The notes under the pieces: model-generated
The model's database searches: none
Seen by the model: only the letters and a program-made list of their open reading frames with translations
What the model was told of the DNA's origin: nothing
In this document: positions 7,962 through 27,102 of the stretch, in pieces
Layout of the letters: the number at the start of each line of letters is the position of its first letter
Position numbering within the stretch: the first letter of the stretch is position 1
Program-made: the position numbers and the translations under genes
Source: Candidatus Gastranaerophilales bacterium
GTDB lineage: Bacteria; Cyanobacteriota; Vampirovibrionia; Gastranaerophilales; CAJFVJ01
Assembly: GCA_944323485.1 (NCBI GenBank)
Contig: CALUSR010000001.1
Span: forward strand, 192,437-256,436
Length of the DNA stretch: 64,000 nt
Direction: 5' to 3'

Positions 7962-7990
7962 ATTCTAAAAAATAACAAATCAAAAGTCAA
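7962..7990 (-). promoter_or_regulatory. Sigma70-like promoter of the marR-MFS operon
   Basis: Read on the minus strand: TTGACT, 17-bp spacer, TAGAAT. Spacing and boxes are near consensus. The predicted transcription start falls inside the tandem operator candidates. Confidence 0.7.
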
Positions 7991-8002
7991 GAAAAACGAA
8001 AC

Positions 8003-8130
8003 TTATATAGCAAATTCCACAGATACATCATTCTGATGGCTTTAGTCTAAAGAATCCTTTTTGTTTAGATACTTCGCTAACGCTCAGTATGACGTTGTTT
8101 TGAAAATTTTTGGAGGAATTTGCTATATAA
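8003..8130. mobile_element. MITE-like element with 16-bp terminal inverted repeats, copy 1
   Basis: A 128-bp non-coding element bounded by perfect 16-bp inverted repeats (TTATATAGCAAATTCC and its reverse complement). The core, read on the minus strand, contains GTCATACTGAGCGTTAGC, GAAGTATCTAAAC and AAAAAGGATT. A second copy in the opposite orientation is at 26941-27080 with the same ends and core. It encodes nothing; a non-autonomous transposon or palindromic repeat is the best reading. Confidence 0.75.
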
Positions 8131-8209
8131 ATCGGGGAAAAACACCCTTTCAACAATAATCGAATTAAATTATAATAATACAGGTAAAAAATGAAAATAG
8201 GACAAAAAC

Positions 8210-26923: not shown

Positions 26924-26940
26924 CGCAGCGAAAATTGGAT

Positions 26941-27080
26941 TTATATATCAAATTACGCCCCAAATTTCCCAAACAACGTCATACTGAGCGTTAGTGAAGT
27001 ATCTAAACAAAAAGGATTTTTCGGGCTAAAACCCTTAGAATGACGGACTTTTAATATTATCTGTGTAATTTGTTATATAA
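26941..27080. mobile_element. MITE-like element, copy 2
   Basis: A 140-bp element with 15-bp terminal inverted repeats (TTATATATCAAATTA against TAATTTGTTATATAA, one mismatch). The core AAACAACGTCATACTGAGCG, then GAAGTATCTAAACAAAAAGG, is nearly identical to copy 1 at 8003-8130. It is inverted relative to copy 1 and differs mainly by small insertions on the right side. Confidence 0.75.
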
Positions 27081-27102
27081 GTTCCGTGAAAATCCCGCAA
27101 AT

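Follow-up and report, generated by a model that had tools for sequence, protein, structure and literature searches.

The window, a stretch of 64,000 nucleotides from a genome of Candidatus Adamsella (G000; Gastranaerophilales), carries two copies of a short, non-coding element, each located between divergently oriented ORFs (Table 1). The two copies are inverted relative to each other and pair over 134 nt with 79% complementarity, the core motif CATACTGAGCGTTAGNGAAGTATCTAA is exact at 8065-8091 and 26980-27006 (0 expected from shuffles), and an end motif is exact at 4/4 ends of both copies. The inverted pair described in the original prediction is therefore real, and its observation that the copies have no coding capacity also holds. 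Its inverted ends of 16 bp, however, are actually ~21 bp long, reaching outwards to GGRAY, and the limits of 8003-8130 and 26941-27080 that it drew are replaced by those in Table 1. Both copies fold much more strongly than shuffled sequences (copy 1, z -4.6 as DNA; copy 2, z -5.3 as RNA). Promoter and terminator scans gave no call within either element, and an Rfam search returned no family matching the MITE. Read outwards, the ends at 8115-8135 and 26936-26956, and the opposite ends, give exactly or nearly TTTGCTATATAA, which resembles an extended -10 box; the promoter scan made no call at these ends of the window copies.

Table 1. Coordinates of the two MITE copies and their parts in the window.
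Feature	Position	Strand	Description
Left target-site duplication, copy 1	7990..7997		AGAAAAAC; 7/8 match to 8136-8143
MITE copy 1, 138 bp	7998..8135	-	A. avium has a copy at the orthologous site
Left terminal inverted repeat, copy 1	7998..8018	+	GAAACTTATATAGCAAATTCC; pattern match with 1 mismatch
First CGTC-type REP, copy 1	8026..8056	+	CATCATTCTGATGGCTTTAGTCTAAAGAATC; tag degraded to CATC
Second CGTC-type REP, copy 1	8068..8094	-	CGTCATACTGAGCGTTAGCGAAGTATC on - strand
Right terminal inverted repeat, copy 1	8115..8135	-	CCGATTTATATAGCAAATTCC on - strand; 2 mismatches to pattern
Right target-site duplication, copy 1	8136..8143		GGAAAAAC
Left target-site duplication, copy 2	26928..26935		GCGAAAAT; 7/8 match to 27086-27093
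MITE copy 2, 150 bp, orientation opposite to copy 1	26936..27085	+	Common to A. avium (C1:365721)
Left terminal inverted repeat, copy 2	26936..26956	+	TGGATTTATATATCAAATTAC; 3 mismatches to pattern
First CGTC-type REP, copy 2	26977..27003	+	CGTCATACTGAGCGTTAGTGAAGTATC
Second CGTC-type REP, copy 2	27015..27045	-	CGTCATTCTAAGGG...GAAAAATC on - strand
Right terminal inverted repeat, copy 2	27065..27085	-	GGAACTTATATAACAAATTAC on - strand; 1 mismatch to pattern
Right target-site duplication, copy 2	27086..27093		GTGAAAAT

A dispersed MITE family in Candidatus Adamsella

Where the original prediction counted two copies, the genome holds ~24, which are not confined to larger duplications. Aligning these copies together with their flanks set the limits of the ends and gave a size of about 140-150 bases, with inverted ends of ~21 bp, GGRAYTTATATARCAAATTCC. 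This end pattern has 41 matches in the genome at no more than 3 mismatches, while the reversed control has 0. In Candidatus Adamsella avium (G001), a member of the same genus, ~49 end pairs have a spacing of 120-150 bp, and a search of the whole genome gave no convincing end pair 0.5-4 kb apart. The pattern is present in 44/286 genomes of the order Gastranaerophilales; among named genomes, it occurs in Ca. Adamsella avium, other Gastranaerophilales MAGs and one 'uncultured bacterium' MAG. Phage and plasmid records contained no MITE copy, and viral contigs contained no exact match to the MITE end region.

Comparison of orthologous sites between the two Adamsella genomes provides evidence of insertion, as 17 G000 copies are common to both and 5 are missing in A. 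avium, while in the reverse comparison 5/10 tested A. avium copies are missing in G000. The empty sites give 8-bp duplications (TTTTGTCA at L012 in G000; TAAAAAGA, AATTTTCT and TGTTGTGA in A. avium), and those around the window copies are near-perfect; the orthologue of copy 1 in A. avium (C1:404205) has the duplications AGAAAAAC/GAAAAAAC. Because both window copies are common to the two species, they probably predate the species split. The elements are thus short and non-coding, with inverted ends, dispersed copies and an 8-bp duplication with matching empty sites, as is expected of a MITE. At one further locus (L025, G000:C3:289236-289284) a single MITE end is fused to a different REP-like interior and the second end was not found; the equivalent place in A. 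avium holds a REP cluster.

Large IS1595-type transposons with the same ends

An IS1595-family transposase is encoded in relatives and scores above the cut-off in both Pfam (PF12762) and NCBIfam (NF033547); in G051, its gene adjoins a MITE-type end previously detected there (L087). A search across the order, with a related transposase as query, reached 29 genomes. In 8 loci the end pattern GGRAYTTATATARCAAATTCCACTAAA closely follows the transposase on its downstream side with 0-1 mismatches, and a further 9 loci have it there with 3-6, each in a different genome. Large elements delimited by perfect or near-perfect end pairs are present in G157 (11.7 kb), G318 (11.6 kb), G230 (8.0 kb) and G317 (8.2 kb), the far ends having been located by pattern and some further elements being split over contigs. 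Perfect 8-bp duplications border 8/8 of the large elements checked, contig-split ones included, although the G051 and G157 elements, both within the eight, have the same flanks and represent one insertion. The outer ~21 bp of the inverted ends are identical between these elements and the MITE. The target duplications, the empty sites and the autonomous partner in related genomes bear out the suggestion of a non-autonomous element in the original prediction. IS6 ends begin GG and contain GCAAA; IS6 was dropped as a source of the MITE ends, since IS1595 elements have identical ends.

The autonomous partner is found outside Adamsella. Neither G000 nor G001, both 99% complete drafts, has a PF12762 match, a hit in a protein-query search or an autonomous partner detectable by end pairs, and viral contigs held no close relative of the transposase. 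No genome was found that combines a full-length IS1595 element of the exact type with a large population of MITEs of the same type, the nearest being G076, which has a transposase with somewhat different ends and 22 end matches. Beyond the outer ~21 bp, the subterminal sequence of the MITE is unlike that of the autonomous elements, so that none of the elements seen would give rise to the MITE by simple internal deletion.

A partial reading of the middles of the large transposons (L300, L302, L304, L308, L313 and L320-L323, in G157, G318, G230, G317 and others) identified as cargo a DUF2130 protein, a 1078-aa PLD/SNF2 helicase, a tyrosine recombinase and, following the transposase, a small ORF. 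The helicase matches PADLOC PLD_Helicase (E 9e-14), and the 8-12 kb elements are possibly defence-carrying transposons. A second IS1595 lineage has the ends GGTAACTATATACAATGTTACASTAAA. Its element in G330 is compact, at 2.2 kb (duplication TTATTTTT), and its MITE in G058 (L070; duplication TTATTTTA) likewise encloses a CGTC REP dimer; both duplications are perfect. In other genera, the same IS1595-type ends as those of the first lineage surround a different REP core, GTCAYNCTGAA...GTTTCAG (L083, L095 and L312).

The core is a dimer of CGTC-tagged REPs

Alignment of intact MITEs revealed an inverted pair of REPs inside, with tags outward. In family alignments, the left half of the core is CGTCATTCTGAG...GAAGAATC and the right half, on the opposite strand, CGTCATACTGAG...GAAGTATC; for the first REP of copy 1, the family consensus is CGTCATTCTGAGGGCTTTAGCC(C/A)GAAGAATC. 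In CGTC-tagged REPs, one end of the stem carries the tag, CGTC or TGTC, and the stem itself begins with AT; by definition the stem measures 8-9 bp and the loop 4-5 nt, and the repeats occur mostly as dimers (Di Nocera et al., 2013; PMC3733652). The superfamily includes the dRS3 repeats of Neisseria and RPE-4 and RPE-6 of Rickettsia, spans several phyla and apparently has no dedicated transposase (PMC3733652). The MITE core fits it in its tag, in the AT at the stem base, in its dimeric form and in its intergenic position, but differs from the surveyed repeats (PMC3733652) in that its stem and loop are longer and less perfect (GTCATNCTGAG...GAAGNATC), in that its host lineage, the Gastranaerophilales, is not among the survey's CGTC phyla, and in being fixed inside a MITE. 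In CTGAG...GAAG-type REPs, ~5 bp pair exactly and the remainder imperfectly; a strict detector missed such copies and a relaxed one found them.

The CGTC core is also found without MITE ends in other families of relatives, and in A. avium 64 core matches lie inside paired MITEs and 32 outside, some of the latter within one-ended MITE remnants. Since the core is seen both with and without the MITE ends, two mobile repeats are nested here. The two readings that the original prediction put forward as alternatives, non-autonomous element and palindromic repeat family, are true simultaneously, the former of the ends and the latter of the core; the resemblance that it noted between the core and a repeat motif of unrelated bacteria agrees with the spread of CGTC-tagged REPs over several phyla. 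Around one CGTC dimer in G011 (L072) there is a third palindrome, GCGCAGGGATTCATTAATT.

GIY-YIG genes flanked by CGTC REPs

In one relative (L298, G282), an IS1595-type end is separated from the transposase by a GIY-YIG gene of 98 aa, which is bordered on each side by an inverted CGTC-type REP. A tblastn search of a plasmid collection with a GIY-YIG query returned 33 records, many from taxa in which CGTC REPs had been listed, namely Neisseria, Sinorhizobium, Sphingobium and Azospirillum (taxa list: PMC3733652). Some records in the collection (NZ_CP119140.1, CP090106.1 and NZ_AP026896.1) are 2-5 Mb long and, while labelled plasmids, look chromosomal, and the S. meliloti 'pSymB' record carries gltA and lpxB. 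We inspected 18 loci from the plasmid collection and 10 more from Gastranaerophilales, and the flanks usually show a repeat with outward-facing tags, whose sequence varies greatly from locus to locus; around the Neisseria gene, the repeats are of dRS3 type.

The strict detector placed REPs on both sides of 11/29 GIY-YIG loci as compared with 0/21000 random windows, and the relaxed detector did so in 17/29 as compared with 46/32000 (0.14%), where random windows are a loose control, the 29 loci are partly dependent (four are Shinella-type or near relatives, two Sphingobium and two near-identical Rhizobium), and the search query itself came from a REP-flanked gene and may favour the flanked subfamily. 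The strict version was too strict for imperfect stems and was relaxed once, after the first result. Some loci scored as one-sided or bare seem two-sided by eye (e.g. L331 and L344). Applied to ORFs of 150 aa or more, the strict detector scored 0 as two-sided, and the relaxed detector found CGTC REPs on both sides in 0/15 RAYT loci.

REP-flanked single-domain GIY-YIG genes (L324-L341, L342-L351 and L298) occur in Cyanobacteriota, Pseudomonadota, Bacteroidota and Gastranaerophilales. A MITE-like core lies directly beside such a gene in G026 (core C2:289683-289749, gene 289362-289643) and in G058 (core C2:154175-154215, gene 153898-154173). The only GIY-YIG gene of Adamsella is a distant one (33% identity), the A. 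avium copy of which has no visible REP flanks, and the GIY-YIG search of viral contigs gave no matches. In Azospirillum lipoferum plasmid AZO_p3 (L338), a GIY-YIG unit with REPs is located between sufB and sufC, which are normally adjoining genes, and in Planktothrix agardhii plasmid p1 (L324), a GIY-YIG gene with clustered REPs is located between a type IIL restriction-modification gene and the DISARM gene drmA.

Related strains differ at the sites of these units. At the site where Sphingobium TomMM7A and TomMM15 carry REP-gene-REP, TomTYG64 has a lone REP, CGTCACCCCGGGTCAAGCCCGGGGTGACGG, and in TomTYG72 and TYG65 both the gene and any recognisable REP are missing. Similarly, Sinorhizobium K101 has a lone REP at the site where S. 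meliloti has a REP-gene remnant-REP arrangement. The lone-REP sites would fit either direction of change: insertion at a REP, as in homing, or removal of the gene from an existing unit. No report connecting GIY-YIG genes to CGTC REPs turned up in the literature searched, whose coverage excludes most subscription journals and bioRxiv, and an earlier publication of the link is possible.

Discussion

We consider it very probable that the element is a MITE moved by an IS1595 transposase, with an independent CGTC REP dimer nested inside. The part concerning the ends is well supported by the ends themselves, the duplications, the empty sites and the 8-12 kb IS1595 transposons that share the ends. 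An IS1595-family DDE transposase, supplied in trans, would have recognised the GGGACTTATATAGCAAATTCC ends and inserted the MITE with duplication of an 8-bp target. Judging from these sequence comparisons, such a transposase presumably moved the Adamsella copies and Adamsella appears to have lost it; as the transposase is absent from both Adamsella genomes, the MITE copies there are probably stranded.

Other routes of spread have to be weighed against this one. The element could be primarily a REP/BIME (REPIN) moved by RAYT, a Y1 tyrosine transposase, with the palindrome only a preferred target, and in keeping with this a REP dimer forms the interior, 18/60 relatives have RAYT-like genes, and REP dimers lie within palindromes in A. 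variabilis and H. neapolitanus (PMC3733652). Yet the 8-bp duplication is external to the palindrome, and RAYT as the mover is contradicted by empty sites that are also without the palindrome, by RAYT loci that CGTC REPs do not flank on both sides, and by the genomes with most MITE copies (G000, G001 and G052), in which there is no Y1 transposase (Y1_Tnp); we regard this route as extremely unlikely. Alternatively, the repeats could be kept for a host function, such as a transcript hairpin, a terminator or a promoter between divergent genes, and spread by duplication only, as the strong folding of both window copies and their position between divergent genes might suggest. The lineage-specific insertions with target duplications contradict this as an explanation of the spread, and the lack of any promoter or terminator call inside the two elements also speaks against it, leaving it very unlikely, although a secondary host role for MITE copies is possible.

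How the dimer came to lie inside the MITE is a separate question. Chance capture or recombination could have brought it there, with GIY-YIG genes merely tolerated beside REPs: CGTC REPs are common, which makes capture possible, the neighbourhood of genes alone is no proof of function, and Adamsella itself offers only the distant GIY-YIG gene and, in A. avium, a copy of it without visible REP flanks. Set against this are the correctly oriented REPs flanking the gene in 17/29 loci from several phyla but only 46/32000 random windows, the orthologous sites at which relatives have a lone REP, and the complete REP-GIY-YIG-REP unit within an IS1595 element (L298). Chance capture is thus a genuine possibility, if in our view a somewhat doubtful one. 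The origin that we propose instead takes the unit still visible in that relative as its model: a REP-GIY-YIG nuclease gene-REP unit would have entered an IS1595 element and then lost the gene, giving the dimer. From this gene context we infer, with less certainty than for the ends, that the core dimer may be the GIY-YIG-less remnant of a homing-like REP element, and that the nuclease may cut REPs. More generally, it is tempting to speculate that a homing-like element has CGTC REPs as its recognition sites and remnants and, as its dedicated enzyme, the single-domain GIY-YIG nuclease encoded between inverted REPs, with the MITE dimer as a gene-less derivative that gained a second means of spread through IS1595 MITEs in Gastranaerophilales; we judge the chances of this broader proposal to be about even.

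Each layer of the element has known counterparts. With the IS1595 family (ISXO2-like DDE transposase, PF12762 / NF033547), related genomes share the transposase, the ends (~21 bp) and the 8-bp duplications, but the autonomous forms here are 8-12 kb long with cargo, and the MITE is geneless with a foreign interior. As in REPIN-RAYT systems (GTAG REPs with Y1 transposases), an inverted dimer of short palindromes is mobile and the autonomous gene is flanked by the repeats, whereas here the tag is another one and the flanked gene encodes a GIY-YIG nuclease rather than a tyrosine transposase. Free-standing GIY-YIG homing endonucleases (I-TevI/I-BmoI group) are encoded by a small gene in or at the putative recognition sequence. 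The arrangement described here is alike in this respect, but the target would be a short repeat with many copies per genome. REP dimers within longer palindromes have been described as GTAG-15 of Anabaena variabilis and CGTC-1 of H. neapolitanus, and the palindrome of the latter likewise begins GGG (PMC3733652). Those palindromes were not identified as transposon ends; that of the MITE is so identified from its target duplications, the empty sites and its autonomous partner.

The MITE constitutes a new IS1595-type family in Gastranaerophilales for which a large autonomous partner is identified, and since palindromes can be transposon ends, the occurrence of REP dimers within longer palindromes becomes explicable. 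The REP-flanked GIY-YIG gene is, in addition, a candidate enzyme for the CGTC REPs, a superfamily described as apparently being without a dedicated transposase (PMC3733652). Flanked by the repeat in distant bacteria, and with a lone repeat in its place in relatives, this gene offers a concrete and testable enzyme for the family.
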